From: Halorussus limi
Lineage (GTDB): Archaea > Halobacteriota > Halobacteria > Halobacteriales > Haladaptataceae
Length of the DNA: 64,000 nucleotides
Assembly: GCF_023238205.1 (NCBI RefSeq)
Contig: NZ_CP096661.1
Location: 1-64,000 of the forward strand
Reading direction: 5' to 3'
The notes under the pieces are model-generated. The model was not told where the DNA came from. It saw nothing but the letters and a program-made list of their open reading frames with translations, and ran no database searches. Below, in pieces: positions 13,076 to 34,399 of the stretch. The position numbers and the translations under genes are program-made. The stretch's first letter is position 1. Each line of letters starts with the position of its first letter.

Positions 13076-14260
13076 TCAGGGATGAGAGATGTGCCGGTCT
13101 ATCGTCTCCAGCAGGACGTTGTCGGGGTCTTGGGAGAGTTCCCAGCACATCATCCCGCCGAAGCCGTTGTCGACCGTGTACTTCGTCTTCTCCTTGACGG
13201 AGTGGCGGTCGTCGTAGGAGATGAACACGTCGTCCGCCTCGGAGTAGAGCCACGGCACGCGCGCCTCGGGGTGCCAGTGGTACTCGTAGTCGGTGCCGTG
13301 CCGGACGTTCTCCGCGATGTCCCCGAACGAGCGGGCGGAACCGCCCTCGAACGGCTGGAACAGACCGTGGTCGTCGGCGTGTTCGTTCTGGACGCTCTCG
13401 AAGGTGCGACCGTAGAACGGAAGCCCGAAGGTGAGTTTCCGCTTGGCTATCGGTTTCCCGGCCCAGTAGCGCATGGCGTGGTCGGCGGTGAACGACGGTT
13501 TCGCGTTGGGCGCGTCCGGCACGGGATAGAGCGGCGCGTTGAAGTGGGTCCGGTCGTCCCACGTCCCGTGGAAGTCGTAGTTCATCACGTTGAGGTAGTC
13601 CACGTCGTCGCTGAACGCGCCCACTTCCTGCGTGTCGATTATCGACGGGTTGGCCGACGCCGCCATGCTCAACTCGTATCGTTGGCCGTCCTCCTGCTCC
13701 GCGGCGTCGAGTTGTCTCCGGATTTCGCGCAGGAGGAGCGTCAGGTTGTGCGGGTCGCTCTCCCGAATCGTGCCGTCGGGGTACTCCCAGTCGATGTCGA
13801 TACCGTCGAAGTTGTACTCGCGCACGAGTTCGATGGCAGTCCGGGCGAATCGCTCGCGCCGTTCGGCCGTGAGCGCGGCGTCGGAGAAGCGACCGGAGTA
13901 CCACTCGGCCTGTATCGAGAACACGAACGACGTGTCGGGTTGTTCGTGAGTCACCGCGCGGAACTCGTCGAGGAGTTCGGGCGCGGCATCGCCGTTGACA
14001 GCGAGTTTGACCTCTCCGGTGGACTTCGGTTCGAGGAAGGCGTAGTTGAGGTGGGTGAGTTTGTCGTACGGTACGTCTCGGGGCGAGTAGTCGCCCGCCC
14101 ACGAAGGGTAGTAGCCGACGACTCGCTTCCCCGACGAAGGACCGCTCTCGCTCGACCCACTACTCGCTCCGGCGACGCCGCCGACCGTCGACAGCGCTGC
14201 CAGCGCACCGGTGCGTTTCATGAATTTGCGCCGCTGATTGCTTACTTTTTGCTCGGACAT
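13076..14260 (-). CDS. Second Tat-exported GH18 chitinase (tandem paralogue)
   Basis: A 394-residue GH18 enzyme. The start is the ATG of MSEQKVSNQRRKFMKR, chosen because the Tat motif QRRKFMKRTGALA follows directly and a TATA-like box sits about 28 nt upstream. The catalytic motif is DGIDIDWE (152-159, acid E159). AASANPSI and MNYDFHGTW complete the family blocks. It shares long identical stretches with the downstream chitinase (VVGYYP-WAGDYSP, VPYDKLTHLN, DYEYHWHP, MCWELSQDP), which indicates local duplication followed by divergence. The loop between YSG and the catalytic strand and the aglycon side differ, so the pair may split endo and exo activity (inference). Confidence 0.93.
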   Translation of the reverse strand: MSEQKVSNQRRKFMKRTGALAALSTVGGVAGASSGSSESGPSSGKRVVGYYPSWAGDYSPRDVPYDKLTHLNYAFLEPKSTGEVKLAVNGDAAPELLDEFRAVTHEQPDTSFVFSIQAEWYSGRFSDAALTAERRERFARTAIELVREYNFDGIDIDWEYPDGTIRESDPHNLTLLLREIRRQLDAAEQEDGQRYELSMAASANPSIIDTQEVGAFSDDVDYLNVMNYDFHGTWDDRTHFNAPLYPVPDAPNAKPSFTADHAMRYWAGKPIAKRKLTFGLPFYGRTFESVQNEHADDHGLFQPFEGGSARSFGDIAENVRHGTDYEYHWHPEARVPWLYSEADDVFISYDDRHSVKEKTKYTVDNGFGGMMCWELSQDPDNVLLETIDRHISHP

Positions 14261-14285
14261 CGGATTATCTAACGGTTTCGACCGT

Positions 14286-14439: not shown

Positions 14440-15240
14440 ATGCTCCCAACAGGACGCTCCTCGTCCGCCGCGTGGGCGGCGAAGACTCGACGCGAAATCC
14501 GCGAGACCGGAGCTGCCGACGGATCGGTCGTCGTCGTACCGGTCGGAAGCATCGAACAGCACGGTCACCACCTTCCCGTCGCCACCGACACGCTACTGGC
14601 CGACGCGGTCGCTCACCGCGGCGCGGAACGCGCCGCGGACGACGTACCGGTGCTCGTGACGCCGCCGGTCTGGTCCGGGTTCTCGCCCCACCACACCTCG
14701 CTGGGCGGCACGTTGACGCTCGAACTGGAGGATCTCCTCGCAGTCTTGGAGGACGTGGCCGACAGCGCGCTCGAAAGCGGATTCGACGGCATCTGCTTCG
14801 TCAACGGGCACGGGGGCAACGCCTCCATCATCGACAACGTCGTGAGTACGGTGGGGAAATCGCACCCCGACGCGGAAGTGACCGGGCTGACGTACTTCCA
14901 ACTCGCGGAACCGTTCATCGACGAGATTCGGGAGAGCGACGTGGGCGGCATGGCTCACGGCGGCGAGTTCGAAACCTCGCTCTTGCTCCACCTCCACCCA
15001 GACCTCGTGACGATGGCGGAGGCGGACGCCGAGTACCTCGACGAACCGTACGAGCGCGGGACGCAGGACCTGCTCGTCGGCGGCGCGCTCTCGACCTACC
15101 GGGAGTTCGAGGAGTACTCCGCGTCGGGCGCTATCGGCGACCCGTCGTTGGCGAGCGCAGAGAAAGGCGAGGAGTTGTTCGACCGACTGGGCGACGAACT
15201 GGCCGACGTGTTCCGGTCGGTCTCCGAGCAGGCGCGATAG
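14440..15240 (+). CDS. Creatininase-family metal-dependent amidohydrolase
   Basis: A 266-residue member of the creatininase/MftE superfamily. Metal-binding residues are recognisable: E39 and H41 in GSIEQHGHHLP, D50 in ATDT, H124 in NGHGGN, and E176 in HGGEFETS. These enzymes hydrolyse amide bonds, often cyclic or short, using two divalent metals in the cytoplasm. Nothing in the window suggests creatinine metabolism. In this context it may open an amide in a murein-derived compound, but that is speculation. It is transcribed towards the NagZ operon and is the only plus-strand gene between the chitinases and the HAD gene at 21382. Confidence 0.88.
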   Translation: MLPTGRSSSAAWAAKTRREIRETGAADGSVVVVPVGSIEQHGHHLPVATDTLLADAVAHRGAERAADDVPVLVTPPVWSGFSPHHTSLGGTLTLELEDLLAVLEDVADSALESGFDGICFVNGHGGNASIIDNVVSTVGKSHPDAEVTGLTYFQLAEPFIDEIRESDVGGMAHGGEFETSLLLHLHPDLVTMAEADAEYLDEPYERGTQDLLVGGALSTYREFEEYSASGAIGDPSLASAEKGEELFDRLGDELADVFRSVSEQAR

Positions 15241-15252
15241 GTCGGGACCGAC

Positions 15253-16842
15253 TCACCGCTCGTCGGGCATCGTGACCGGGAGTCGGCCGGTCGGTTCCCG
15301 GTCGCCGACGAGCACCTCCGCGACGGCCGCGAGCGACGGGGGAGTGGCGTCGTACGTCGTCAGATACGTCTCGACGTCCGGGAACTCGGCGAGGTCGTAG
15401 GGATTGCGGGTCGCGACGACCACCGCGCTCGCGTCTGCCGCGAGGAGGTCCCGAACCGCGGCCGCCTGCTCGGGGTCCGCGGCGGCGTCGGACGTTCGCA
15501 CGACCGTCGGGGCGTCGGACGCCGCGAACTCGGGCGTCTCGCCGGGGTCGAGAACCGTCGCGTCCACCGTCGCCCCCGCGTCCGAGAGCGCCGCTGCGAG
15601 CGCACCGCTGTCGTCGCGGCGTTCCTCGGCGAGCGAACTCCGGGTGGCGTCGAACTCGTAAACCGAGACGGGTTCCCGGGGAAGCGGCAGGGCGTCGCCG
15701 TCGTCGCGGACGAGCGTGACGGCGCGTTCGGCGACGCTCCGCGCGACGGCGCGACAGTCCGAGGCGGCGGCCTCCGACTCCGCTTCGTCGCCGACGGTGC
15801 CCGCGCCGTACGCCCGCTTCGCCCGGAGAACGCGCCGGACCGATTCGTCGATGCGCGACTCCGAAATACGTCCGGATTCGACGGCGGCCACGACGGCGTC
15901 GATGGCCGCGCGCTGTTTCTCCGGCGTGTGTGAGACGCAAATCTGGTCACAGCCCGCTTCGACCGCCTGCACGCAGCCTTCGACCGTCCCGACGCCGTCG
16001 GCGATGGCGTCCATCTCCATGCAGTCGGTGAAGACGAGTCCGTCGAAGCCGAGTTCCTCGCGGAGGAGACCCGTGACGACGCGGGGCGAGAGCGTCGCCG
16101 GGCGCTCGGCGTCCGCCGCGATGGTCGGGAACGCGACGTGAGTCGTCATGACGGCGCCGATACCGGCGTCGACGGCCCGGCGAAACGGCCGGAGTTCGAC
16201 GCGGTCGAGGCGGTCGCGGTCGTGGTCGATGACCGGCAAGTCGCGGTGGGAATCGATCGCGGTGTCGCCGTGTCCCGGGAAGTGCTTCCCGCAGGCCACG
16301 ACGTTCGCGTCCTGTAACCCGTCGGCGAACGCGGTGCCGAGTTCCGCGACGGTCTCGGGACGCTCGCCGAACGAGCGAACGCCGATGACCGGGTTGTCGG
16401 GGTTGTTGTTCACGTCGAGGACGGGCGCGAGGTCCACGTCGATGCCCAGCGACCGGAGTTCGCGCCCGACCGCTCGGCCGGCCCGCACCGCCAATTCGGG
16501 GTCGTCGGCCGCGCCGAACGCCATCGCGCTCGGCTGTTGGGTCCCCCACGAGAGTCGCGCGACCCGGCCGCCCTCCTGGTCGATGCTTACGAGCAGCGGC
16601 GGCCCGCCGTCGGGCACGAACCCCTGTAGCGTCCGAGAGAGCGTCCGGAGTTGGGCGGGCGACTCGACGTTGCGACTGAAGTAGATGACGCTGCCGAGGT
16701 GGCGCTCGGCGACCAGCGCCTCGATTTCGGCGGTCGGAGCGGTCCCGTCGAAACCAGCGACGAATAACTGTCCCACCTTCGCGTCGAGCGACAGCGACGA
16801 AACGGTCGATTCGACGTCGGAATGAGTCGTGTTAGCGTCCAT
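15253..16842 (-). CDS. nagZ: GH3 beta-N-acetylglucosaminidase (NagZ-like)
   Basis: A 529-residue two-domain GH3 enzyme. The NagZ signature KHFPGHGDTAIDSH (186-199) supplies the Asp-His acid/base dyad (D197, H199). The nucleophile is D273 in VFTDCMEMDAI. SIDQEGGRVARL is the substrate-binding block. The C-terminal alpha/beta domain (about 360-529) resembles the two-domain Bacillus enzyme and not the single-domain proteobacterial form. It removes non-reducing GlcNAc from GlcNAc-MurNAc or chitobiose. There is no signal peptide, so it probably works inside the cell, unlike the secreted Bacillus enzyme. It follows the NamZ stop by 5 bp, hence one operon. Confidence 0.95.
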   Translation of the reverse strand: MDANTTHSDVESTVSSLSLDAKVGQLFVAGFDGTAPTAEIEALVAERHLGSVIYFSRNVESPAQLRTLSRTLQGFVPDGGPPLLVSIDQEGGRVARLSWGTQQPSAMAFGAADDPELAVRAGRAVGRELRSLGIDVDLAPVLDVNNNPDNPVIGVRSFGERPETVAELGTAFADGLQDANVVACGKHFPGHGDTAIDSHRDLPVIDHDRDRLDRVELRPFRRAVDAGIGAVMTTHVAFPTIAADAERPATLSPRVVTGLLREELGFDGLVFTDCMEMDAIADGVGTVEGCVQAVEAGCDQICVSHTPEKQRAAIDAVVAAVESGRISESRIDESVRRVLRAKRAYGAGTVGDEAESEAAASDCRAVARSVAERAVTLVRDDGDALPLPREPVSVYEFDATRSSLAEERRDDSGALAAALSDAGATVDATVLDPGETPEFAASDAPTVVRTSDAAADPEQAAAVRDLLAADASAVVVATRNPYDLAEFPDVETYLTTYDATPPSLAAVAEVLVGDREPTGRLPVTMPDER

Positions 16843-16847: not shown

Positions 16848-18014
16848 TCAGTAGCGGAGGTACTTCCCGCGCACGTCGGCGAACTCGGCGAGGTCGTCCT
16901 CCCAGTGGGCGGTGACGTCCGCCGCGATTTCGCGGGGTTCGCTCGTAGAGTCGGCGGCGTCGATAGTCTCGCGCAGGTAGCTACCGCCGGCGAGTTTGTC
17001 CACGAAGAACTCGTCGTCGTACTTTATCCACTCGCACTCGTCGTGAGAGGTGAACGCCGACGCGAGGACCGTGAGACCGACCATCACGGGGTCCACGGCG
17101 TCGCGGTCGAGGACGTGGACCTGCACGCCGGTCACGTTCTCGTGTTCGTGCTTCGAGAATGTCGGGGAGAAGTACGCCGGGCGGAACGCGACGCCGTCGA
17201 GGTTCTGGGCCGACAGTTCCGCTGCCCACTCGGCGGCGTCTATCCACGGCGCGCCGACGAGTTCGAAGGGCTTGGTCGTCCCGCGGCCCTCCGAGAGGTT
17301 CGTCCCCTCGAAGAAGCCCATGCCGGGGTACAGCGTCGCGGTTCCCGGCGTCGGCATGTTCGGCGAGGGGTACACCCACGGCAGGTCGGTGTCGGAGAAC
17401 CAGTCCGAACGCGACCAGTCGCGCATCTCGACGACTTCGAGCGTCGCGCCGATGTCGAACTCCTCGTTGAAGTACGTCGCCAGTTCGCCGACCGTCAGGC
17501 CGTGAACGATGGGGAGTTCGTACGCGCCGACGAACGAGGACGCCGACTCCTCGACCCGGTTGCCCGTGACCGACACCGGCGCGATGGGGTTCGGTCGGTC
17601 GAGGACGACCATGCGCTTTCCGGCCTCGGCGACGCCTTCGAGCGCGTACGCCAGCGTGTAGATGAGCGTGTAGAAGCGACACCCGACGTCCTGCATGTCG
17701 TAGATGACGGTGTCCACGTCCGACACCATCTCCGGGCGGAGTTGTCGCTGTTCGCCGTAGAGGCTCTTGACCGGGAGACCGGTTCGGTCGTCGGTGCTGT
17801 CGTCGACCTTGACGCCCGCCTGCGCGTCGCCCCGGATGCCGTGTTCGGGGCCGAACAGTTTCCGGAGGTCGAACGCGTCGCGGTCGTCGAGCAGGTCGAT
17901 TGTGGTGTTGAGGTCGCTGTCGGTCCCGGAGGGGTTCGTGATGAGTCCGAGTCGGTCGCCCTCGACCGCGCCGGAGCGGTCGTCTAACAAGCGTTCTACG
18001 CCCAGTTGAACCAT
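16848..18014 (-). CDS. namZ: NamZ-type exo-beta-N-acetylmuramidase (DUF1343, GH171)
   Basis: A 388-residue DUF1343 protein. Family blocks in order are LFGPEHGIRG (53-62), DMQDVGCRFYTLIYTL (106-121), LDRPNPI (138-144), VYPSPNMPTPGT, and EGTNLSEGRGTTKPFE (236-251), followed by GAPWID. Characterised members cleave terminal MurNAc from the non-reducing end of murein chains, leaving GlcNAc ends for NagZ. Length is normal for the catalytic domain, and there is no export signal. Just upstream is a TIM-barrel protein; immediately downstream is NagZ. The NamZ-NagZ pairing is the classical Bacillus muropeptide rescue arrangement, here in an archaeon without murein. Confidence 0.94.
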   Translation of the reverse strand: MVQLGVERLLDDRSGAVEGDRLGLITNPSGTDSDLNTTIDLLDDRDAFDLRKLFGPEHGIRGDAQAGVKVDDSTDDRTGLPVKSLYGEQRQLRPEMVSDVDTVIYDMQDVGCRFYTLIYTLAYALEGVAEAGKRMVVLDRPNPIAPVSVTGNRVEESASSFVGAYELPIVHGLTVGELATYFNEEFDIGATLEVVEMRDWSRSDWFSDTDLPWVYPSPNMPTPGTATLYPGMGFFEGTNLSEGRGTTKPFELVGAPWIDAAEWAAELSAQNLDGVAFRPAYFSPTFSKHEHENVTGVQVHVLDRDAVDPVMVGLTVLASAFTSHDECEWIKYDDEFFVDKLAGGSYLRETIDAADSTSEPREIAADVTAHWEDDLAEFADVRGKYLRY

Positions 18015-18137: not shown

Positions 18138-19313
18138 TCACTGTCCGAGGTGCGGGGCGGCCTCGTCGAACCAGTCGAGGTGGGCGTCGCTCATGAGCGC
18201 GTGGTTGTAGACGTGAACCTCGTCGGCGAGGTCGGAGACGCCGTCGACTATCCCCCGCCACTCGGTCTCGGTCCCGACCACGTCGGGGTCGAGCGTCACC
18301 CCGGCGTCGACCGGCACGTCCACCGCCTCCCGGTACCGCCGAACGCGGCGGCGGGCGAGTTCCCGGTCGTCGGTGTAGCAGAGCGCGACGATTCGGTCCA
18401 AGTGGGGCCGAATCCGGTCGAGGACGACGCCCGCGGGCCACCCGTCGTTCGGGTCCCGACCGAGGCCGTCCGACGCCGAGTAGGTGAGGTCGATCCCACC
18501 GCTGGCGGCCGCCACGCCCTCCACGAACGTCTCGATGACCGACGCCCGGAAGTCGAAGAGGTCCTCCAGCACGGGACGGTCCGCGACGAGGCGTTCGAGC
18601 GAACTCACCTGCGGCGTCGGTTCGCTCACGACGTCCCGGACTAGAGACCGGACGACCGAGCGGGCGCGGTCGAAATCGACGGGGTGGTCGGCCGCTCGCT
18701 CCCGGCAGGCCGAACAGAAGCACTGCGAGACGAGCATCTCCTCGGCCGCCCCGCTGACGACGTGGTTCTTCGCGTGGCCGAACGTCGCACCGTGACCGTG
18801 GAAGGCGCTCGGGAACCCGAGCGATTCGAGGTTGATGGCTTCGATGTCGTACTCGGCGAGCGAGCGCGCGACGTCCTCGAAGTAGGCGCGAACCGCCGGT
18901 TGCGACGGGCAGAACGCGTGTTCGTGGTCGTCGCCGAACGCGCTCTGGACGCGGAGCGCGGGGTTCTCCGCGCCGAGTTTCGAGTTGTGAAAGCAGACCA
19001 GCCACGCGTTCACGTCGATGCCGCTCTCGCGGAGCAGTTCGACCACGTCGCCGAACGGGTCGGCGCGCCCGTCCACCTCGTTCACCGGCGGGTCGACGGA
19101 CGTGTCGGCGAACGCCCCTCGGTCGGGATCGAAGTAACAGCCGCCTTCGTACGATTCGAACAGACCGTTCTCCGCGCGCGGGTCGAGCGTTCGGATAGAG
19201 TGGTAGTGTGCGGCGACGGTGACGCTCGTCACGCCCATCTCGACGAACTCGCGTCTCGTCTCGGCGGGGTCCTGTGAGAGCAGTCGCCACGGATAGCTCC
19301 AGACTGCGACCAT
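18138..19313 (-). CDS. TIM-barrel glycosidase-like protein with Cys cluster
   Basis: A 391-residue protein; the ATG at 19313 is preferred over an in-frame TTG nine bases earlier. It reads like a (beta/alpha)8 hydrolase-related protein: VAVWSYPWRLL, VTVAAHYHSIRTL, VNAWLVCFHNSK, EAINLESLGFP, GGIDLTYSASDG and VYNHALMSD mark successive strands. A CFCSAC motif after the fourth strand is a likely metal or structural site. A similar Cys cluster occurs in the protein at 36020. Such proteins are often annotated as alpha-amylase-like or GHL proteins; the substrate is unknown. Its place at the head of the NamZ-NagZ operon suggests a glycan-related task. Confidence 0.75.
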   Translation of the reverse strand: MVAVWSYPWRLLSQDPAETRREFVEMGVTSVTVAAHYHSIRTLDPRAENGLFESYEGGCYFDPDRGAFADTSVDPPVNEVDGRADPFGDVVELLRESGIDVNAWLVCFHNSKLGAENPALRVQSAFGDDHEHAFCPSQPAVRAYFEDVARSLAEYDIEAINLESLGFPSAFHGHGATFGHAKNHVVSGAAEEMLVSQCFCSACRERAADHPVDFDRARSVVRSLVRDVVSEPTPQVSSLERLVADRPVLEDLFDFRASVIETFVEGVAAASGGIDLTYSASDGLGRDPNDGWPAGVVLDRIRPHLDRIVALCYTDDRELARRRVRRYREAVDVPVDAGVTLDPDVVGTETEWRGIVDGVSDLADEVHVYNHALMSDAHLDWFDEAAPHLGQ

Positions 19314-19423: not shown

Positions 19424-20464
19424 TCAATCGAACTTCCCGGCGGCGACCATCGCGTGGAATCGCTCGCGGAACCGAACGAGACCCGTGTCCTTCCCGTCGT
19501 GGACCTGGTTCGTGAGCAGTACGGCGAACCGGTCGCGGTCGTGGTCTAGCCAAAGCGACGTCCCGGTGTAGCCGGTGTGACCGAGTCCGCGCCGCGACCA
19601 GTTCGGCGCGGGGTAGGTCCCGTCGGCGAGTCGCCACCCGAGACTGTGACGCTCCTCGCAGTCCGGGAGCCAGTCGTCCCGGAGTCGTTCGACGGTGGCG
19701 GCCGAGAGGAGCGTCCCGTCGGCGGCGAGGTACGCCCGCGCGAACGCCGCGAGGTCGTCGACGGTCGTGAACAGTCCGGCGTTGCCGCTGTGTCCGTCCA
19801 TCGCCCACCCCAGCGGGTCGTGTACCTGCCCTCTGAGCGTGCGGTCCCGGTAGTCGTGGTCGTACGTCGCGGCGACGTTCTCTTCGTCGCTCACCGGACC
19901 GAGACGCGAGGCGTCCATTCCGGCGGGGTCGAAGACGCGGGTCTCGGCGAGTTCGTCTAGCGGGCGACCGGTCGCGCGCCGGAGCGCCTCCGCCAGATAG
20001 ACGAAGTTGAGACAGCTGTACTCGTGTCGCTCGCCGGGGGCGGCGTCGAGCAGCGAGCGGTCCCGAAGGCCCGCGAGCGCCTCGGACGCCGAACTCCACG
20101 ACTCCGAGAAGGCATATGGTTGCAGGCCGGAGCTATGAGTGAGAAGCTGGTCCAGTCGAATCTCGCCGCGACGGCGCCCCGCCAACTCGGGAACGTGACG
20201 GCCGAGTTCGTCCGAGAGCGCGATGTCGCCGGACTCGACGAGCGCGAGCGCAGTCGTGGCCGTCACGACCGGTTTGGTGAGCGAGGCGGCGTCGAACACC
20301 GTCGAGCGAGTCGTCGGGGCGTCGCGATCGGGGTCGCGCAGACCGACGGTGGAGACTCGGTCGATGCCGTCTGCGGTGCCGACCGCCGCCGCGGCGCCGG
20401 GGTAGACGCCGTCGGCGAGTCCGCGGGTCAGAAACGCTTCGAGGGGCGCGTTCGAGCGTGTCAT
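19424..20464 (-). CDS. Serine hydrolase of the beta-lactamase/PBP4* family, AmiE-like
   Basis: A 346-residue PF00144-type serine hydrolase. The S-x-x-K motif is SLTK (S61, K64), the Tyr motif is YSCLN (Y149), and HTG (296-298) replaces the class C KTG triad. The region VPELAGRRRGEIRLDQLLTHSSGL is typical. In Bacillus the N-acetylmuramoyl-L-alanine amidase AmiE of the muropeptide rescue operon belongs to this same family and sits beside nagZ and namZ. The same neighbourhood here makes an AmiE role likely, though esterase or D-peptidase activity is possible. No signal peptide is visible, so it is probably cytoplasmic. It is a separate transcription unit upstream of the NamZ operon. Confidence 0.88.
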   Translation of the reverse strand: MTRSNAPLEAFLTRGLADGVYPGAAAAVGTADGIDRVSTVGLRDPDRDAPTTRSTVFDAASLTKPVVTATTALALVESGDIALSDELGRHVPELAGRRRGEIRLDQLLTHSSGLQPYAFSESWSSASEALAGLRDRSLLDAAPGERHEYSCLNFVYLAEALRRATGRPLDELAETRVFDPAGMDASRLGPVSDEENVAATYDHDYRDRTLRGQVHDPLGWAMDGHSGNAGLFTTVDDLAAFARAYLAADGTLLSAATVERLRDDWLPDCEERHSLGWRLADGTYPAPNWSRRGLGHTGYTGTSLWLDHDRDRFAVLLTNQVHDGKDTGLVRFRERFHAMVAAGKFD

Positions 20465-20614: not shown

Positions 20615-21235
20615 TCAGTACGAGTTGACGAGGTCGATGTAGTAGTCCCAGTCCCAGTTGGCACCGGGGTCGGTGTGCGTGCTCTCGGGCACCTGCGAGT
20701 GGGCGATGATACCGCCGTTGGCCGGGTTCGCCGCGTCGTACGGGACGTTCGACGGGTGCTGCTTCGGGACGCCGTACTGGTCACAGAGCCAGCTGGCGAG
20801 CTTGGCCGACGCCCGGTACTGGGCGTCCTCGTAGCTCTCGCTGACGTAGCCGCCGTGTTCGATGCCGACCGAGTACGTGTTGTAGTTCGACCCGCCCGCG
20901 TGCCACGCGATGTTGATGTCGCTGACGCTCTGGTACTTGTGGCCGCCCTCGGAGACGGTGTAGTGGGCGCTCACGTCGGCGTCGGGGTCCTGGAACCAGT
21001 TGACCGCACTGCTGGCCGACCCCTGCACGGTGTGGATGACGATCCAGTCGATCTTGCCCGCACCGCGGTCCGCGGCCGTGTAGTTGCTCGAGTCGGCCGG
21101 TTCCCAGTCGACGGCCGGCTTCGCCGCCGCGGTACCGCTACCCAGTGCTGCGCCGCCGAGGCCGACCACACCGGCCGTGGCAGCGCGCTTCAGTACGTCT
21201 CGCCGAGTCGATTTCGCATCGTTGTTTTCTTGCAT
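20615..21235 (-). CDS. Tat-exported N-acetylmuramoyl-L-alanine amidase (Amidase_2/PGRP fold)
   Basis: A 206-residue secreted protein. Its Tat signal is STRRDVLKRAATAG (RR 11-12), with cleavage near GTAAA. The mature part is an Amidase_2 domain. Zinc ligands are H68 in IVIHTVQG, H179 in IIAHSQVP and D189 in HTDPG; the catalytic acid is E126 in VGIEHGG. NWDWDYY near the end matches the family. These enzymes cut the MurNAc-L-Ala bond of murein and release stem peptides. It lacks a wall-binding module. In an archaeon it can only target foreign cell wall, for feeding or antagonism. All catalytic positions are intact. Confidence 0.93.
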   Translation of the reverse strand: MQENNDAKSTRRDVLKRAATAGVVGLGGAALGSGTAAAKPAVDWEPADSSNYTAADRGAGKIDWIVIHTVQGSASSAVNWFQDPDADVSAHYTVSEGGHKYQSVSDINIAWHAGGSNYNTYSVGIEHGGYVSESYEDAQYRASAKLASWLCDQYGVPKQHPSNVPYDAANPANGGIIAHSQVPESTHTDPGANWDWDYYIDLVNSY

Positions 21236-21381: not shown

Positions 21382-22065
21382 ATGACGTACGACGCGATTC
21401 TGTTCGACGTGGACGGCGTCCTGCTGGATCTACACGCGGACCATCCGAGCGTCTATCGGCAGGCGGTGGCGACGACCTTCGACGAGTTCGGCGTCTCGCC
21501 CGGGGACGCCGACCTCGACGCGTTCGTCTCGGGGGCGACGGTCGAGGAGATGCGCCGGACGTGTTCCGAACACGGCGTCGAGTTCGAGACGTTCTGGCCG
21601 CGACGCGAGACCAACGCGTCGGACCTCCAGTGCGAGATGATGGACGACGGCGAACGCCTCCCGTACGGCGACTGCGCCGTCCTACACGAACTCGTCGACG
21701 AACACGATATGGGCGTCGTCAGCAGCAACCAGCACGCGACCGTCGAGTACATGCTGGCGCGTTTCGACCTCGAACACCTGTTCGACGCGGTGTACGGTCG
21801 AGAACCGACGGTCGAGGGGTTCCGACGGACCAAACCCGACACCCACTACGTCGAGCGAGCGATGGCCGACCTTGGCGTGGCGGAGGGACTGTACGTCGGC
21901 GACAGCGCCTGCGACGTGTCGGCCGCCCGCCGCGCGGGTCTCGATTCGGCTTTCGTCCGCCGGCCACACCGCGAGGACTACGCGCTCCCGGAAGAACCGA
22001 CGTACGAGATTTCGTCGCTCGTCGCGCTTCTCGACCTTCCCGGCGTCGCTCCGTCGTCGTCGTAG
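21382..22065 (+). CDS. HAD-superfamily sugar-phosphatase-like protein (possible MupP analogue)
   Basis: A 227-residue HAD hydrolase. Motif I is FDVDGVL (D9, D11), motif II is VSSNQ (S114), motif III is K151 in RTKPDT, and motif IV is GDSACD (173-178). A helical C1 cap gives the phosphoglycolate/beta-phosphoglucomutase-like layout. Between the amidase and AnmK it is well placed to dephosphorylate MurNAc-6-phosphate, as MupP does in Pseudomonas. That is inferred from position only, since HAD substrates cannot be read from these motifs. It is transcribed convergently with anmK, so it is a separate unit. Confidence 0.87.
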   Translation: MTYDAILFDVDGVLLDLHADHPSVYRQAVATTFDEFGVSPGDADLDAFVSGATVEEMRRTCSEHGVEFETFWPRRETNASDLQCEMMDDGERLPYGDCAVLHELVDEHDMGVVSSNQHATVEYMLARFDLEHLFDAVYGREPTVEGFRRTKPDTHYVERAMADLGVAEGLYVGDSACDVSAARRAGLDSAFVRRPHREDYALPEEPTYEISSLVALLDLPGVAPSSS

Positions 22066-22592: not shown

Positions 22593-23819
22593 TTACCGCG
22601 GCGGGCAGCGCTTCCCCATCACCACGGGGCGGGACGCGCCGGTCGCCTCGGGAACGTTGTTCGGAACCCCGTCCATCGCCGCGGCGGCGAGCAGAGCGAA
22701 GGCGACGGCCTCCTTCTCGTCGGCACCGACGCCGTACTCGTTGACGGTGCGCACCTCGGCTTCCACCGCGTCGTCGAGCATCCCGACGAGCGCCGGGTTG
22801 TACGCGCCGCCGCCGGAGACGACCACCTCGTCCGGGGTTCGCGGGAGGAACCGGCGGTAGGCGTCCGCGATGGAGCGAGCGGTCAGCGCGGTGGCGGTGG
22901 CGACGGCGTCCTCGTCCGAGAGGTTTCGAGCGCGACACGCGTCGAGAAACTTTCGGGCGTACGCCCGACCGAACCGCTCGCGCCCGGTCGATTTCGGCGG
23001 TTCGGAGCGGAAGTAGTCGTCGTCCAAGCACTCCTCGAGGAGCGCCTCGTCGACGGTTCCCGCGCGGGCGAGACACCCGTCGCGGTCGTACGTCCGTTCG
23101 CCGTCGGTCAGCAACTCCACGACGCCGTCGATGACCATATTCCCCGGCCCGGTGTCGAAGGCCGACACGTCGCCGCGGGTCGGGTCCGGCGGTAGCGCGG
23201 TGCAGTTGGCGATACCGCCGACGTTCTGGGCGACGCGAAAGCGGGTGTCGTCGGCCAGCAGGGCGAGGTCGGCGAACGGGACGAGCGGTGCGCCGTGGCC
23301 GCCGACTGCGACGTCCGCTGTTCGGAAGTCCGCCACCGTAGGCACGCCGGTTCGCTCGGCGACGACGCTGCCGTCGCCGATTTGTAGCGTCGAGCGCAGT
23401 CGGTCGTCGCCGACCGGGAGCGACTGCGGTTCCGGAACGTGGCGAATCGTCTGGCCGTGCGACCCGATTGCGTCCACGTCCGCGAGCGAGAGACCGGCGG
23501 CGTCCGCGGCGTCTTCGGCCGCGGCAGCGAACACCGCGCCGAGCGCCACGTTCAACTCGCACGCGTCGGCGACGGTTCCCGCCTCGCCACACGCCGCCGC
23601 GATTCGCTCGCGGAACGCGGGGTCGTACGGGCGCGTGACGAACGATTCGACGCTCACATCGTAGCCGCGCGGCCCGTCGCCGTCCCGGCGAATCCGACAG
23701 CAGGCGGCGTCCACGCCGTCGAGGGACGTGCCCGACATGAGACCGACGACGGTGCGCTCGCCGACTTCCTCGGGGGCGCATCGCTGGCGTCGGCGCGCGT
23801 CGAGTGACGCGTCGCTCAC
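22593..23819 (-). CDS. anmK: Anhydro-N-acetylmuramic acid kinase
   Basis: A 408-residue AnmK. The ATP-binding start GLMSGTSLDG (26-35), GSHGQT (119-124), DFRTADVAVGGHGAPLVP (164-181, containing the likely general base D169), NVGGIANCTALP (199-210) and FDTGPGNMVID (221-231) are all conserved. AnmK hydrates and phosphorylates 1,6-anhydro-MurNAc to MurNAc-6-phosphate. The start is a GTG overlapping the stop of the upstream acetyltransferase (GTGA); the conserved N-terminus leaves little room for another choice. The substrate arises only from lytic transglycosylase action on murein, so an archaeal copy points to scavenging. No MurQ etherase is present in the window. Confidence 0.95.
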   Translation of the reverse strand: MSDASLDARRRQRCAPEEVGERTVVGLMSGTSLDGVDAACCRIRRDGDGPRGYDVSVESFVTRPYDPAFRERIAAACGEAGTVADACELNVALGAVFAAAAEDAADAAGLSLADVDAIGSHGQTIRHVPEPQSLPVGDDRLRSTLQIGDGSVVAERTGVPTVADFRTADVAVGGHGAPLVPFADLALLADDTRFRVAQNVGGIANCTALPPDPTRGDVSAFDTGPGNMVIDGVVELLTDGERTYDRDGCLARAGTVDEALLEECLDDDYFRSEPPKSTGRERFGRAYARKFLDACRARNLSDEDAVATATALTARSIADAYRRFLPRTPDEVVVSGGGAYNPALVGMLDDAVEAEVRTVNEYGVGADEKEAVAFALLAAAAMDGVPNNVPEATGASRPVVMGKRCPPR

Positions 23820-24793
23820 GCCGAGACCTCCTTTTCCAGCGTCTCGTACGCCAGCCATGGCTCGAATCCGAGTTTCCGGTAGTAGTCGAGCAGTCCCGTC
23901 CAGTCGATGACCGTCCGGTCGTACCGAGCGTCGCGGTACCGTTCGACGATGGTAGCTATCATCCACAGTCCCCAGCCGCGACCCCGGTACGACTCGTGAA
24001 CGCCGAGCGGACCGAGACCGCAAACGGCACCGTCGAGGCGGTCGGCCCAGTTGACGTTCGCGCCGCGGTACGTCGAGTCCGGCGTGTTGGTCCGCGCGAA
24101 TCCGACGGCCGTCCCGTCGTGTCGGAGGAGCCAGTAATCGGTGCCGCCGCCGGGAACGCGACAGACGTTTCGCGCCTCGTAGTACCAGCGTCCCGGGAAC
24201 TGGTCGGCGAGGAACGAGCGGAGGTCGGCGTCGTCTGCGCCCACGCGCTCGACGGTCAGGTCCGGCCACGACTCGCCGACGCGGGCGACGCGCTCGCCCG
24301 GGTCGAACCCAGCGATGTCGCGTTGCAGGTCGTGGACGGTCCCGCGCGATTCGAACCCCGCGTCGCGGAGCGTCTCGCGGAGGCGGTCGAACTCGGTCGG
24401 CGCTCCGGGGAGGACCTGTCCGGGGTCGCCGCCGAAGCGGAGACGAGACACGCCGCGGTCGGTCGCGGCGCGCTCGACCGTCGCGAGCAGTTCGTCGGCG
24501 ACGGCGCGCCGGTCGGCGACCGACGGGTCCACGGCGAACAGGCTAATCCAGCCCTGTTCGGGACCGGCGTAGTCGGGAATCCTCTCCACGAGTCGCTTTC
24601 CGACCGCGACGGCGACGACGCTCCCCTCTGAGACCGCGCCCCACGCAGTCACGTCGAGACCGTCGAAGGGGGCGAACACGCTCTGGGTCACTACTCGCTC
24701 GGGGAGCGAAAAACCCGGATGCGCGCGATTCCAGCAGTCGATACCGTCGCGGACAGTGGTGTAGTCGGTGAGCCTGCGAACCTCGAACTCCAT
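23816..24793 (-). CDS. Tandem GNAT-type N-acetyltransferase
   Basis: A 325-residue protein with two GNAT-like halves. The N-half (about 1-150) contains ISLFAVDPSVADRRAVADELL, an eroded motif A. The C-half contains LGPLGVHESYRGRGWGLWMIATIV, a good acetyl-CoA pyrophosphate-binding motif (R/Q-x-x-G-x-G), and ends with IDWTGLLDYYRKLGFEPW. The C-half is the probable catalytic unit. An ATG at 24793 is preferred over the GTG one codon earlier. It overlaps anmK by 4 nt, so the two are translationally coupled. Acetylation of a glucosamine or muramic acid derivative is plausible but only inferred. Confidence 0.83.
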   Translation of the reverse strand: MEFEVRRLTDYTTVRDGIDCWNRAHPGFSLPERVVTQSVFAPFDGLDVTAWGAVSEGSVVAVAVGKRLVERIPDYAGPEQGWISLFAVDPSVADRRAVADELLATVERAATDRGVSRLRFGGDPGQVLPGAPTEFDRLRETLRDAGFESRGTVHDLQRDIAGFDPGERVARVGESWPDLTVERVGADDADLRSFLADQFPGRWYYEARNVCRVPGGGTDYWLLRHDGTAVGFARTNTPDSTYRGANVNWADRLDGAVCGLGPLGVHESYRGRGWGLWMIATIVERYRDARYDRTVIDWTGLLDYYRKLGFEPWLAYETLEKEVSA

Positions 24794-24846
24794 CACCCTC
24801 CGTCTTCCTCGCGGGAGTACTTATAGGCCGGCGACGGTCGGACCCG

Positions 24847-25686
24847 TCACTCGGCGTCGCCGCGGCCGTCCGTCGGCGGGTCGTCGATGTCGTACATCAT
24901 CGTCTCCAGTCGCTGGTCGAGACCCGCCGTGAGACCGCCGTCGATGGCGAGTTCGGCGCCCGTGACGAACGACGCCTCGTCGGACGCGAGAAAAGCCACG
25001 GCGGCCGCCACGTCCTCGGGGCGGCCGAACCGGTCGACCGGATACTGATTTAGCCACTCCTCGCGGACCGGTCCCTCGCTGGTGAGTTTCTCGCTCGACG
25101 CGTCGGTGATGATGCTCCCCGGACAGACCGCGTTCGAGCGGACGCCGTGTCGCCCGTACTGCGTGGCGATAATCCGAGACAGCGCGAGGACACCGTTCTT
25201 CGACGCGGAGTAGGCGGCGAGACCGATGCCGAGTCGGGCGTTGACCGAGGAGACGTGGACCATCGCGCCGCCGCCCGACTCGACCATCGCCGGGAGCGTC
25301 TCGCGCGCACAGAGGAACTGCCCTTTGAGGTTCACGTCCACGATTCGGTCCCACGTCTCCTCCGTGACTCGGTCCGGATTCCCGTCGTCGAACGAACCGC
25401 CGGCGTTGTTCACGAGCACGTCCACGCTCCCGTGGGCGTCCATCGTCGCCTCGACCATCGTCGAAACGTCGGTCGCGTCGCTCACGTCGGTGCGGACGAA
25501 CTCGGCGGTGCCGCCGTCGTCCTCGATTGCGGCAACCGTCTCCGCACCGCCTTCTGCGTCCACGTCAGCCACGACTACGGTGGCGTCCTCGGCGGCGAGG
25601 CGTCTGGCGATAGCCCGGCCGATACCGTTGCTCGCTCCGGTGACGATAGCGACGTCTCCGCTTCGACTGCGGTCGCTTCTGTCCAT
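24847..25686 (-). CDS. Short-chain dehydrogenase/reductase
   Basis: A 279-residue classical SDR. The cofactor motif is TGASNGIG (16-23), D41 after VVVAD favours NAD(H), NNAG is at 93-96, and the catalytic S147, Y159 and K163 are present (SSVNARLG, YSASK). The C-terminal loop GAELAIDGG is typical, with an unusual 20-residue acidic tail. It is the first gene of a three-gene minus-strand run with the acetyltransferase and anmK. It may oxidise or reduce a sugar or sugar acid; D-lactate, the MurNAc side chain, is less likely as SDR substrate. Specificity is unknown. Confidence 0.88.
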   Translation of the reverse strand: MDRSDRSRSGDVAIVTGASNGIGRAIARRLAAEDATVVVADVDAEGGAETVAAIEDDGGTAEFVRTDVSDATDVSTMVEATMDAHGSVDVLVNNAGGSFDDGNPDRVTEETWDRIVDVNLKGQFLCARETLPAMVESGGGAMVHVSSVNARLGIGLAAYSASKNGVLALSRIIATQYGRHGVRSNAVCPGSIITDASSEKLTSEGPVREEWLNQYPVDRFGRPEDVAAAVAFLASDEASFVTGAELAIDGGLTAGLDQRLETMMYDIDDPPTDGRGDAE

Positions 25687-25830: not shown

Positions 25831-27816
25831 ATGGTTAACGATAACCATGTCACCGGTGGCGACACCGACGGAAACAGGGTGACTCGGCGGCAGTGGCTCG
25901 CGCTCGGCGGTGGCGCGGCGCTGACAGGATTGGCCGGTTGTAGCGGCGACAACCCGAACGAGACGGACGTGACGATGAGTTCGAAGCCGGACGAGACCGA
26001 CACCACCGGCGAGACGGACACCGAGCAGAGCGGTGGTTCGCCCGTGACAACGACGCTCAACATGCGCGCGCCGGTCAGTTGGCAACCGAGTAAGTCGAAC
26101 GTCAATCCGTTCACCGACACCAAGAACACCGAGTACTGGATGGACTACATGTGGTCGGAGTCGCCGGTGTACCCGAACGCTCGGGGCGAACCCATCTACT
26201 GGCTCGCCGACGAGATAAACCTCAAGGGCGGCGGTTGCGAGGTCCACATCAAACTCAGCGAGGACTACACGTGGTGGGACGGTACCCCGGTAACTGCGAA
26301 AGACGTTCACACGACCCAGCTCATCAGCGACTACAAGAACTACATGGGTCCCGACCAGACCGAAGATAGCTGGGAGGTCGTGGACAAGTACACCGTCAAG
26401 AACGTCCTGCCCGGTCCGGCCAACCCCTCGCTGAAGAAGTCCCAGTACTACTCGGTCGTCGCCAAACACGACTACTTCAAGTCGTGGTTGGAGAAGTACG
26501 AGGACGCGAGCAACGAGAGCGCCGTCAAGCAGGTGACCAAGAACCTCCAAGAACACCGGATAACGCTGAACGACCTCACGGAGAAGGGGTTAGGCTGTGG
26601 CCTCTGGAAGCCGACGCAGCTCTCGCCGACGAAAGCCGTCCACGAGAAGTATCAAGACCACCCGCGCGCCGACTGGACGAACCTGGAAACGTTCAACTGG
26701 CACCTCATCTCCGAGAAACAGAAGGCGATTCAGGCGCTCAAGACCGGAAAGCTGGACATGGGCGACAAGACCGTCACGCAGGCCCAGTCCAACGACAGAG
26801 TCAGCATCTTCAACCGGTTCGGCACCTCCAGCATCGTGAAGTTGGCGATGAACTGGAACAACGAGCACCTCGCCCGCCGGCCGGTCCGCCGCGCCATCGC
26901 GTACCTCCTCGACCACGACGAACTGGTCAAGATAATCAAGACGACGCAGGGGCTGAAGTACAAGTCCCGAAGCACCGTCAACGGGTTGTCCTCGAAGCAG
27001 GCCCAGAAGTGGGGCGGGAAGAGCTTCCAGAACAAACTCATCGGCTACGGTCGAAAGTCACAGCCGGAGAAGGCGAAGAAGGTCCTGCAGGACGCCGGCT
27101 ACTCGAAGAAAGGCGGCGTCTGGGTCGGGCCGAACGGGAGCAAGGTCAACGACCTCACCTACCTGACGCCGCCGTGGAACATCTACGAGACCATCGGGAA
27201 CTACCTCAGCCCGAAACTCGACAAGTTCGGATTCAAGAACAAACTCATCATCCCGTCGTCGAGCGGCTTCTGGAAGCGGTGGACCGACACCCACGACTTC
27301 GACATGGTCAACTGGTTCTCGAACACCTCACACCCGGGGAACGCCTTCGCGACCAACAGCGTGGCCGGTCTGGGCAAGTACAACGAAGTCGCCACCGTCA
27401 AGCAACCGAAGGGCAAGTGCAAGGTCAATCGCACGACGCCCGAACTCAGCCAGCCGCGGAGCAAGAAACTCAACCACCCCATCCGGCCGAAGTTCCCGAA
27501 GAAGGTGGGCACAATGGGAACCGGGGGCGAGCAACAGACGCTCTACCCCGTCAAGTGGAACGACATCATCACCCAAACCCAGTCCGCGGACGAGGTCAAG
27601 AAGTACGCCAAGAAGTTCATGTGGTACATGAACTGGCAGGTGCCTCACATCGGCTTCTACGACGAGACGAGGGCGTACTGGGGCAACACCGACAAGTTCA
27701 ATTTCCCCACCGGAAAGGTGGACGACCACCCGAACGCCAAGGAGACGAAGTCGGAACACTTCACGAACGCGATGGAGTTCCTCTCGAAGGGTCACATCAG
27801 CGCGAAGACCAAGTGA
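25831..27816 (+). CDS. Tat lipoprotein substrate-binding protein of an oligopeptide-type ABC importer
   Basis: A 661-residue SBP_bac_5-type receptor. The Tat motif VTRRQWLALGG (RR 19-20) ends in lipobox LAGC (C37), so it is exported folded and lipid-anchored. A Ser/Thr/Asp-rich linker (about 38-75) precedes the binding domain. YTWWDGTPVTAKDVH is the family signature, and RRPVRRAIAYLLDHDELV is also typical. The protein is unusually rich in lysine for a secreted haloarchaeal protein. With the permease and ATPase genes downstream it would import peptides, muropeptides or chitooligosaccharides; the family covers all three. It stands alone before a gap holding two opposite-strand small genes. Confidence 0.92.
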   Translation: MVNDNHVTGGDTDGNRVTRRQWLALGGGAALTGLAGCSGDNPNETDVTMSSKPDETDTTGETDTEQSGGSPVTTTLNMRAPVSWQPSKSNVNPFTDTKNTEYWMDYMWSESPVYPNARGEPIYWLADEINLKGGGCEVHIKLSEDYTWWDGTPVTAKDVHTTQLISDYKNYMGPDQTEDSWEVVDKYTVKNVLPGPANPSLKKSQYYSVVAKHDYFKSWLEKYEDASNESAVKQVTKNLQEHRITLNDLTEKGLGCGLWKPTQLSPTKAVHEKYQDHPRADWTNLETFNWHLISEKQKAIQALKTGKLDMGDKTVTQAQSNDRVSIFNRFGTSSIVKLAMNWNNEHLARRPVRRAIAYLLDHDELVKIIKTTQGLKYKSRSTVNGLSSKQAQKWGGKSFQNKLIGYGRKSQPEKAKKVLQDAGYSKKGGVWVGPNGSKVNDLTYLTPPWNIYETIGNYLSPKLDKFGFKNKLIIPSSSGFWKRWTDTHDFDMVNWFSNTSHPGNAFATNSVAGLGKYNEVATVKQPKGKCKVNRTTPELSQPRSKKLNHPIRPKFPKKVGTMGTGGEQQTLYPVKWNDIITQTQSADEVKKYAKKFMWYMNWQVPHIGFYDETRAYWGNTDKFNFPTGKVDDHPNAKETKSEHFTNAMEFLSKGHISAKTK

Positions 27817-27896
27817 AGTCCAGACGGGTCGAACGTCCGACCGACCGCATTTTTTACTGACGTGACGTCACCGCCGACCGGATTTTCCTCGCGGCG

Positions 27897-28118
27897 TCAC
27901 CTCCGATGGCACTTCAGAAGGACTCCCGCCGTCGGTACCGCGAGGACGGCGGCACCGACGAGGTTGAGGATGCCGACGACGTGCGAGGCGGTTCCTGGTT
28001 CCGTGCCGAGCACAAACACGACCGAGAGCACCCCCGCGAGACACTCGAACGCGAACAGCATGGCGAACTTATCGCTGTTCGAGCAGACGTAGTCGAAGAA
28101 CGTCGGTGAGTGAGACAT
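27897..28118 (-). CDS. Small two-helix membrane protein
   Basis: A 73-residue protein with two hydrophobic segments (about 17-37, FAMLFAFECLAGVLSVVFVL, and about 46-66, VVGILNLVGAAVLAVPTAGV). A short N-terminus, MSHSPTFFDYVCSNSDK, precedes them and CHRR ends it. The longer open reading upstream is Arg/Gly-rich and was rejected; the ATG at 28118 is the sensible start. It lies on the opposite strand between the ABC receptor and permease genes, with a zinc-ribbon gene 29 bp upstream. Function is unknown. Confidence 0.6.
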   Translation of the reverse strand: MSHSPTFFDYVCSNSDKFAMLFAFECLAGVLSVVFVLGTEPGTASHVVGILNLVGAAVLAVPTAGVLLKCHRR

Positions 28119-28147
28119 TTTCTCGTGAGGACGTTTTTCGACAGGAA

Positions 28148-28327
28148 TTAAGTATCTTGCCCCGACGTTCCCGCGTCGGTCGTGCGAACCACCGCGTGCG
28201 GGACGCCACACTCCGGACACTCGTAGTGGTCGCGCTCGAACGTCCGGCCGCACCTGATGCACTGATAGGGGTCGCGCTCGTCGTCCGAGTCGCCGACGAG
28301 TTCGAGGAGTCGCGAGAGCAGCGACAT
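28148..28327 (-). CDS. Small zinc-ribbon protein
   Basis: A 59-residue protein read directly from the minus strand. It begins MSLLSRLLELVGDSDDERD, then has CIRC and CPEC pairs 16 residues apart, a rubredoxin-like zinc ribbon (YQCIRCGRTFERDHYECPEC), and a short Thr-rich tail. Many haloarchaea encode such miniature zinc-finger proteins, which may act as regulators or chaperones. It shares an orientation with the membrane protein just downstream and may be co-transcribed. Its start is about 100 bp from the permease start on the other strand. Confidence 0.72.
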   Translation of the reverse strand: MSLLSRLLELVGDSDDERDPYQCIRCGRTFERDHYECPECGVPHAVVRTTDAGTSGQDT

Positions 28328-28426
28328 ACGCGAACGTGCGGCGCGGGCGTAATGAGCCTTCCTCTCTCTGTGCGAAGAACCCCCATAGCTTTATTGAGGT
28401 GGGAGAAATACAGGCAGGATAGCACG

Positions 28427-29452
28427 ATGTATTATGCGAAGCGAATCGGCCAATCAGTGCTGGTGTTTTTCATCGCACTGACAGTAACGTTCGCTCTCTA
28501 CCGGATGTTACCGTTCGGTCCGGTCGAGATGGTCAAGGTTCGACTGATGAAACAACTGATCGAACAGGGCCAGAGCCCGTCGGCCGCGCAGATGCAGACC
28601 ATCAACTCGATGGTCAAAACGTACACCGGTATCGACCCGTCGGTGCCGTGGTACGTCTCCTACTACGAGTACCTGAAGAACATCGTCCTCTATCAGGACT
28701 TCGGGCGGTCGATATTCAAGAACAAGCCTGTGTTCGACATCCTCTTCCGAGCGATGCCGTGGTCGGTGTTCATCAGCATCTACGGCCTCGCGCTCGGGAC
28801 GACCGTCAGTCTGCTGTTCGGCGCCGTCATGGCGTACAACGAGGGGAGCAAGTTCGACGCCGTGATGACCATCGTCTCCATCGGCAACAGCACGGTTCCC
28901 TACTACGTCGTCGCCATCCTCACGCTCATCGTCTTCTCGTTCAACCTCGGGTGGTTCCCCAGCGGGGGGCGCATGAACCCCTCGACGACGCCCGGCCTCA
29001 ACTTGCCGTTCATCGTCGGCGTCGTCAAGCACGCGGCGCTCCCGGTCTTCTCGGCGTTCATCGCCAGTTTCGGCGGCGCGCTGGCGTTTCGCGGCAACTG
29101 CATCCGCGAGATGGGCGAGGGATACATCCGTGTCGCCCGACTTCGCGGCATCAGTCAGGGTCGAATCGCGATTCGCTACGTCGGCCGTAACGCGCTGTTG
29201 CCCGTCTACACCAACATCATGATGGGCATCGCGAGCGTCTTCGGGAGCAGCATCATCCTCGAGACGATATTCAACTACCCTGCGATGGGGATGGTGACGT
29301 TCAACGCGCTCATGAACCGGGACTACCCGCTCATCATGGGGTCGTTCATCTTCTTCACGATAATCACGCTGTTGGGCATCCTCGTCGCCGACCTCACGTA
29401 CGGTATCATCGACCCGCGCGTCAAAGGAGGGAAGGAACGTGAAACCTACTGA
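28427..29452 (+). CDS. ABC transporter permease, DppB/OppB type
   Basis: A 341-residue membrane permease. It begins MYYAKRIGQSVLVFFIALTVTFALYRMLP, the first membrane helix, followed by a large external loop and about five more helices. The cytoplasmic EAA-type coupling loop is YIRVARLRGISQGRIAIRYVGRNALLP. The start at 28427 is chosen because upstream in-frame codons belong to the antisense zinc-ribbon region, and a TATA-like GCTTTATT lies about 35 nt upstream. It overlaps the next permease by 14 nt. It forms the channel with the DppC-type protein. Confidence 0.92.
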   Translation: MYYAKRIGQSVLVFFIALTVTFALYRMLPFGPVEMVKVRLMKQLIEQGQSPSAAQMQTINSMVKTYTGIDPSVPWYVSYYEYLKNIVLYQDFGRSIFKNKPVFDILFRAMPWSVFISIYGLALGTTVSLLFGAVMAYNEGSKFDAVMTIVSIGNSTVPYYVVAILTLIVFSFNLGWFPSGGRMNPSTTPGLNLPFIVGVVKHAALPVFSAFIASFGGALAFRGNCIREMGEGYIRVARLRGISQGRIAIRYVGRNALLPVYTNIMMGIASVFGSSIILETIFNYPAMGMVTFNALMNRDYPLIMGSFIFFTIITLLGILVADLTYGIIDPRVKGGKERETY

Positions 29453-30506: not shown

Positions 30507-30742
30507 GTACCGCATCGACCGGACGCGTGACGTCCGTCCTGCTGGCGATTCGACAGTCGTTCCTCGCCTTCGTTACGGCCATCGGCGTCGGTTGCTGCCT
30601 GCTCGCCGTCCTGCTGTCGGAGTACGTCCTCGCCGGACTGTCGTACGGCGTCCTCGCGGGGATGTTCGCCATCTGGGGCGTGAGCGCGTTCGTCTACGCC
30701 GTCGTCGGCCACCTCGGACTCCGACTCATCGGGTACCGCTAA
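30503..30742 (+). CDS. Small membrane protein coupled to the ABC permeases
   Basis: A 79-residue protein with two clear membrane segments (about 16-38, FLAFVTAIGVGCCLLAVLL, and about 45-68, GLSYGVLAGMFAIWGVSAFVYAV), and a short Arg-containing end. It starts at a GTG overlapping the permease stop (GTGA) and so is translated with it. It lies between the permease and ATPase genes. No known family is recognised. It could be an accessory subunit of the importer, because tight coupling inside a five-gene transport operon is rarely accidental. Confidence 0.7.
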   Translation: MSTASTGRVTSVLLAIRQSFLAFVTAIGVGCCLLAVLLSEYVLAGLSYGVLAGMFAIWGVSAFVYAVVGHLGLRLIGYR

Positions 30743-30876: not shown

Positions 30877-30881
30877 CAGCA

Positions 30882-34374: not shown

Positions 34375-34399
34375 CCGCCGCCGGGTGTCGCGAGAATCG

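Follow-up and report, generated by a model that had tools for sequence, protein, structure and literature searches.

A plasmid-borne gene cluster in Halorussus with an exported Amidase_2 protein, predicted to serve the breakdown of bacterial murein

Introduction

The MurNAc operon of Bacillus subtilis is of the murQ-murR-murP-amiE-nagZ-namZ type; its MurQ is a MurNAc-6P etherase, the usual bacterial means of opening this wall sugar. Haloarchaea, as far as we are aware, have no murein of their own, so a dedicated murein-breakdown set in one of them implies feeding on bacteria or on their remains. The Amidase_2, NamZ, NagZ and AnmK families are already known, as are exported archaeal peptidoglycan hydrolases. 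Two modular haloarchaeal hydrolases of the latter kind, Woldo and Danwoldo, kill bacteria (Strock et al., 2025; PMC12352652). The same study reported a more frequent occurrence of an OppBCDF-MppA set in archaeal genomes that encode peptidoglycan hydrolases, and left undecided whether the role of these enzymes is killing, competition or scavenging (PMC12352652). For Natrarchaeobius, a GlcNAc route has been predicted that comprises a deacetylase, glucose dehydrogenase, glucosaminate lyase, IclR and RutC; GH171 is listed there just as a CAZyme family, and murein is not discussed (PMC12343721). Our search of open-licence papers, which leaves most subscription journals outside, found no report of murein catabolism in haloarchaea and none of a linked archaeal murein-catabolism set that consistently lacks MurQ.

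Here we analyse a window of 64,000 nucleotides from a 311 kb secondary replicon of Halorussus limi; in relatives, syntenic copies of the locus lie on plasmids. We conclude that its exported amidase probably performs the first, extracellular step for a plasmid-borne cluster that lets the cell feed on bacterial murein (and chitin). Like Woldo and Danwoldo, the amidase is haloarchaeal, exported, a predicted murein cutter, patchy in distribution and often plasmid-borne; unlike them, it is an Amidase_2 rather than an M23 protein, has a single domain and is set among catabolic genes. Its family lay outside the earlier survey because only modular hydrolases with a wall-binding domain were taken (PMC12352652). 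With the Natrarchaeobius cluster, the locus shares CE14, glucose dehydrogenase, DgaE-like lyase, MR-type dehydratase, RidA/RutC, IclR, GH18 and GH3 genes, and the Halorussus set additionally links NamZ, AnmK, an AmiE-like protein and the exported amidase (PMC12343721). A cluster that joins an exported hydrolase, import and sugar catabolism makes the question of role testable in cultured Halorussus and Haladaptatus.

The exported amidase

The amidase gene (20615..21235, minus strand, ATG start) encodes a protein of 206 aa that matches PF01510 (E 1.2e-30) over aa 60-191, at 107 bits against a cut-off of 26. A profile search identified it as the sole PF01510 gene of the 4.6-Mb genome. Its GC3 of 0.90, its acidic composition and the orthologues at the equivalent place in Halorussus aquaticus, annotated "peptidoglycan recognition family protein", show that the reading frame is not a chance or frame artefact.

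As expected of an Amidase_2 protein, the sequence holds three zinc ligands, H68 (WIVIHTVQ), H179 (GIIAHSQ) and D189 (THTDPGANW), and a catalytic Glu, E126 (SVGIEHGG). In an alignment to E. coli AmpD (PDB 1j3g), E126, H179 and D189 fall on the catalytic Glu and zinc ligands of AmpD. Two residues ahead of its zinc Asp, AmpD has a Lys, and this position is occupied by His187 in the amidase. An earlier note on this DNA had called the catalytic set complete: the four residues that it named are exactly as claimed, and completeness holds for the zinc ligands and the Glu, not for the Lys. Fold family, zinc ligands and catalytic Glu are thus common to the amidase and the superfamily of E. coli AmpD, T7 lysozyme and PGRPs, from which it differs in being Tat-exported, in having His for the AmpD Lys and in being closest, among the relatives found, to short actinobacterial amidases. 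An assignment as AmpD equivalog was rejected on its score (58 bits against the NCBIfam cut-off of 143), its Tat signal and His187.

By inspection, the N terminus is a Tat signal (STRRDVLKRAATAGVV...GTAAA, with cleavage before KPA) that has a twin-arginine motif (STRRDVLK), a hydrophobic stretch and a cleavage site between TAAA and K; no lipobox was seen in it. Tat signal and catalytic residues are both kept in orthologues from several genera. The 206 aa consist of the Amidase_2 domain and the signal region only, with no wall-binding domain. Structure predictions for the amidase and for UNK1 (see below), made from two input sequences each, were of low confidence (pLDDT 39.7 and 43.4).

Gene content of the cluster

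From upstream to downstream, a minus-strand run (21235 to 15253) comprises the amidase, a PF00144 protein, UNK1, NamZ and NagZ, separated by 150, 110, 123 and 5 bases. Next to this run lie AnmK, an importer of Opp type and what is predicted to be a haloarchaeal module for chitin/GlcNAc; the whole spans about 29 kb. Several separate murein-sugar families (Amidase_2, NamZ, NagZ, AnmK and the AmiE-like PF00144 protein) are found side by side. Tat signals are limited, among the proteins examined, to the amidase, two GH18 glycosidases and the binding protein of the importer; NagZ, NamZ, AnmK and the PF00144 protein start without a signal peptide. No upstream motif common to the amidase and other cluster genes scored above shuffled sequence.

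The PF00144 protein (19424..20464, minus strand; E 9.7e-58; Ser-x-x-Lys) is a serine hydrolase of penicillin-binding-protein/beta-lactamase fold and, by position and family, of YbbE/AmiE type. Of 16 related genomes, 11 have its gene in their clusters, and counterparts of 25-35% lie beside NagZ/NamZ in nine of the 80 NamZ loci examined, all bacterial. The putative exo-beta-N-acetylmuramidase NamZ (GH171; 16848..18014, minus strand) matches PF07075 (E 3.4e-81), PF20732 (E 1.5e-47) and PDB 4k05 (E 1.9e-82). Adjacent to it is the GH3 beta-N-acetylhexosaminidase NagZ (15253..16842, minus strand; PF00933, E 1.8e-97), which carries the KHFPGHG-x4-D-S-H motif and passes the NCBIfam PRK05337 equivalog cut-off.

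UNK1 (18138..19313, minus strand) is a conserved GH-like, TIM-barrel-type protein of 391 aa that has no signal peptide and no Pfam domain above cut-off, and it is present in 15 of the 16 related clusters. Its predicted secondary structure alternates strand and helix in a TIM-barrel-like manner; DUF4015 matches seven of 15 UNK1 members weakly (best E 5e-4), and UNK1 matches the DUF4015-type structure 4s1a at E 5.7e-5. A reading as a Cwp19-type lytic transglycosylase, which would be a source of anhydro-MurNAc, was unsupported (Cwp19 E 0.27). A murein-specific function was rejected on its occurrence in NamZ-free clusters. By tblastn, UNK1 also occurs on 113 Rhizobium plasmid records and in NamZ-free haloarchaeal clusters.

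Further left are a creatininase-family amidohydrolase (14449..15240, plus strand; PF02633, E 1.3e-66; in 14 of the 16 related clusters) and two Tat-exported GH18 glycosidases on the minus strand, a chitinase-like one at 13076..14272 (PF00704, E 1.7e-73; DGIDIDWE; RRKFMKR signal) and a second at 11733..12899 (PF00704, E 1.3e-76; DGLDLDWE; RRKFLRG signal). An IclR-family regulator (10812..11573, plus strand; PF01614, E 8.8e-43), found in nearly all related clusters, forms the left edge of the conserved block.

Divergent from the amidase is a HAD phosphatase (21382..22065, plus strand; PF13419, E 5.3e-20); a MupP-like role as MurNAc-6P phosphatase is only possible, the MupP model matching at E 3e-4, far under its cut-off. 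AnmK, of the anhydro-N-acetylmuramic acid kinase family (22593..23801, minus strand; PF03702, E 4.3e-99; FDTGPGN motif), scores 453 bits against the NCBIfam AnmK equivalog cut-off of 387, and its best PDB match is a levoglucosan kinase, not an AnmK. It is followed, towards higher coordinates, by a GNAT-family protein (23816..24796, minus strand; PF00583, E 4.4e-15), which has a counterpart beside NamZ in Bacillota and is 22% identical to those of loci L177 and L129, and by an SDR dehydrogenase of a glucose-1-dehydrogenase-like subfamily (24847..25686, minus strand; PF13561, E 1.9e-65; PRK07231 above cut-off). The Opp/Dpp-type ABC importer (25831..33133, plus strand) consists of a Tat-lipoprotein binding protein (RRQWL, LAGC; PF00496), two permeases (PF00528 twice) and two ATPases (PF00005 with PF08352, twice).

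The right part of the block begins with an enolase-superfamily lyase/dehydratase (33167..34282, minus strand; PF13378, E 7.9e-58; KTK, LDPN, LEQP, D-x4-GG and HHC motifs), kept at at least 50% in 15 of the 16 related clusters. It lacks the catalytic Lys at the end of strand 6, which excluded it as an L-Ala-D/L-Glu (murein dipeptide) epimerase; from D-x4-GG and HHC, by motif only, the protein appears to be of the acid-sugar lyase type. Then come a PIG-L/CE14 deacetylase (34322..35224, plus strand; PF02585, E 1.5e-31; HPDD, HPDH), a DgaE/SelA-like PLP ammonia-lyase (37186..38394, plus strand) with an SGGK lysine, a match to PDB 7lc0 (D-glucosaminate-6-P ammonia lyase, E 2.1e-47) and a DgaE-model score of E 6e-61 that is under the cut-off of that model, a glucose-dehydrogenase-type zinc dehydrogenase (38422..39507, minus strand; PF16912, E 2.5e-93) and, at the right edge, a RidA enamine/imine deaminase (39504..39893, minus strand; PF01042, E 4e-40; TIGR00004 above cut-off). 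Largely the same genes as in this right half are also grouped in loci for chitin or sulfated glycans that have no NamZ. A GATase1-like protein (PF07090; 35241-36005) and UNK2 (36020-37192; no family match) are kept in the Halorussus and Haladaptatus clusters; a cytochrome P450 at 40492-41829, just beyond the conserved block, is not retained in related clusters.

Distribution and linkage in haloarchaea

The block from 10.8 to 39.9 kb is kept in Halorussus and Haladaptatus and partly in further genera, and the flanking genes are not. Halorussus aquaticus and H. vallis have near-identical loci on plasmids, with 92.7% for the amidase and 98.7% for NamZ in H. aquaticus. Of 391 Halobacteria genomes, 17 have NamZ. 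AnmK is present in 16, every one of them inside the NamZ set, and in all 16 the two genes are no more than about 17 kb apart. The co-occurrence of the two genes is significant over genomes (Fisher 1.6e-27) and over genera (5e-13); such tests treat related genomes as independent, and the genus-level figures here and below are safer, correcting for this only partly. The NamZ genome without AnmK, alone among those surveyed, is that of Halosolutus gelatinilyticus (G379), which has two divergent NamZ copies on a plasmid (L101/L102). On a plasmid of Haladaptatus pallidirubidus, AnmK is a 378-base fragment (L193:3744-4121), apparently decayed, beside two NamZ genes, and the UNK1, creatininase and enolase-superfamily genes are retained. 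In a 392-genome sample, taken across the whole phylum, only one genome outside the class Halobacteria has NamZ; that copy (L195; G659:C92:1523-2125) comes from a fragmented assembly, where it lies on a small contig, and may be contamination.

Any Amidase_2 gene (PF01510) is present in 51 of the 391 Halobacteria genomes, that is, in 12/17 NamZ genomes and 39/374 others (p 3e-8). Since 39 of the 51 are without NamZ, the amidase has functions, or a past, that do not involve the cluster. Short exported amidases are overrepresented among NamZ genomes (8/17 against 5/374 others, p 2e-9), also at the genus level (4/12 against 0/74, p 2e-4). Five species have the amidase gene within the cluster itself: that of the window, H. 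aquaticus, H. vallis, one of another family (G073) and YIM A00010. Several NamZ genomes carry an amidase on another replicon and five have none, so that it is a frequent accessory and not a core part. A second haloarchaeal Amidase_2 class (L024 to L052; about 300-840 aa) has extra sequence and mostly Tat-like N termini, and many of its members have CPG, not DPG, at the third zinc ligand.

A predicted murein route without MurQ

Each activity, substrate and direction of flow in the following scheme is read from sequence. The amidase would be folded in the cytoplasm, exported by the Tat system and, because it has no lipobox, released. Outside, with zinc, it would cut the MurNAc-L-Ala bonds of sacculi or debris into peptides and bare glycan, which the exported GH18 enzymes may shorten. 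Fragments would be taken up by the Opp-type importer, and NagZ and NamZ would alternately strip GlcNAc and MurNAc inside the cell, where the PF00144 protein may take off leftover peptide and AnmK would phosphorylate anhydro-MurNAc. The amino sugars would then pass through the oxidative route of haloarchaea, by way of the CE14 deacetylase, a C1 dehydrogenase, a glucosaminate-type lyase and RidA, to give keto-deoxy-gluconate for the Entner-Doudoroff pathway.

Gene identity, motifs, the presence or absence of signals, linkage and co-occurrence were established directly, and so was the absence of MurQ. Profile searches of the 17 NamZ genomes (that of the window and 16 relatives) found no MurQ over cut-off, yielding weak SIS-domain matches alone, in frames of about 600-1000 aa. 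The same model scored 386-406 bits on bacterial NamZ neighbours as a positive control. The lack of MurQ counts against the scheme, leaving one of its steps with no enzyme known to carry it out. That MurQ is consistently missing where AnmK and NamZ are present suggests that the lactyl ether of muramic acid is opened in a manner not yet recognised; in mycobacteria, a non-MurQ lactyl etherase has also been posited (PMC13041923). As a tentative proposal, of which we are doubtful, MurNAc might lose its acetyl group and be oxidised at C1, giving a 2-amino-aldonate from which a PLP (DgaE-like) or enolase-superfamily lyase would beta-eliminate the 3-O-lactyl group. The products would be keto-deoxy-gluconate, lactate and ammonia, with lactate instead of water leaving C3. 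Beta-elimination of lactate by either type of lyase is chemically plausible. The PIG-L, PLP and dehydrogenase genes are missing from some related clusters, whereas the enolase-superfamily gene is present in 15 of 16, which makes it a fair candidate for the lactyl lyase too. If such a route exists, the chemistry predicted for glucosaminate in these archaea would also serve to open the muramic-acid ether.

Nutrition, weaponry and other readings

The earlier note had read the protein as an exported murein amidase, which the sequence backs well, and had left its role open between predation, competition and nutrition; the surroundings now favour nutrition, as the gene shares a conserved cluster with those for NamZ and NagZ, for an AmiE-like protein and AnmK, and for an importer of Opp type. 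Were the amidase mainly a weapon that lyses neighbouring halophilic bacteria, the catabolic genes would be there by the chance of a mobile replicon or for a later use of the spoils. Patchy distribution, plasmid location and Tat export would suit such a role, and haloarchaeal peptidoglycan hydrolases of different architecture do kill a halophilic bacterium (PMC12352652). This killing, together with the NamZ-free majority (39 of 51) of Amidase_2 genomes, leaves the idea some weight. However, the amidase differs from the reported killers in having no domain for wall binding or targeting, we noticed no gene for immunity, injection or a further toxin in the cluster, and the association with the murein-sugar catabolic set is significant, so that we regard a mainly offensive role as unlikely. 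Nutrition is the better supported of the two, and killing may be a stage on the way to feeding.

The cluster could also be essentially one for chitin/GlcNAc, with NamZ, AnmK and the amidase as side activities or acting on non-murein glycans. AnmK would then be a levoglucosan-type anhydrosugar kinase, as its best solved relatives are, although it scores above the AnmK equivalog cut-off and has 50% relatives in MurQ-bearing clusters. The two GH18 genes, CE14, glucose dehydrogenase, DgaE-like lyase, RidA and IclR do match the Natrarchaeobius module (PMC12343721), and NamZ-free clusters with sulfatases and GH20 likewise contain UNK1, creatininase, MR/MLE, SDR, PLP and RidA genes. Against this, several murein-linked families would need to be together by coincidence, and two related clusters (G047, G167) keep NamZ, AnmK and NagZ with no GH18 relative in the stretch searched; we consider an essentially chitin-directed cluster quite improbable. 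That the amidase is a recent and functionally idle import with no settled role, for example of actinobacterial or endolysin source, seems to us scarcely credible: its patchy distribution and its nearest bacterial relatives in the plasmid collection (Streptomyces and Nonomuraea, 42-48%) would fit, but its catalytic residues and Tat signal are conserved over several genera. A viral origin was rejected, as peptide patterns found no relatives in the viral contigs of IMG/VR and endolysins in phage records are distant (about 31-34% identical).

Origin and bacterial counterparts

Horizontal acquisition is the best reading of the murein-catabolism island that the amidase would feed. A quick tree of 95 NamZ proteins placed those of haloarchaea in a single group (SH-aLRT 99), which also takes in one bacterium of the Halanaerobiales, a halophile lineage; from this tree, a single entry of NamZ into haloarchaea followed by spread is likely. 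NamZ neighbourhoods of that bacterium and of Paenibacillus contain MurQ at equivalog level, PIG-L and GNAT, with NagZ and AnmK in addition in Paenibacillus, and the haloarchaeal cluster thus resembles a Bacillota MurNAc-utilisation set minus MurQ. Compared with bacterial MurNAc/muropeptide operons (including the Paenibacillus and Halanaerobiales loci L161 and L129), NamZ, NagZ, the AmiE-like PF00144 protein, AnmK, PIG-L, GNAT, an importer and a regulator are common to both. The haloarchaeal set differs in lacking MurQ, in its Opp-type importer and IclR regulator (neither an RpiR-type MurR nor a PTS is among the annotated cluster genes) and in adding the exported Amidase_2, the GH18s and the oxidative amino-sugar module. 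The bacterial NamZ nested among the haloarchaeal ones is that of a Halanaerobiales MAG (L129), 58% identical to NamZ of the window; its placement may reflect transfer between halophilic bacteria and archaea, in either direction.
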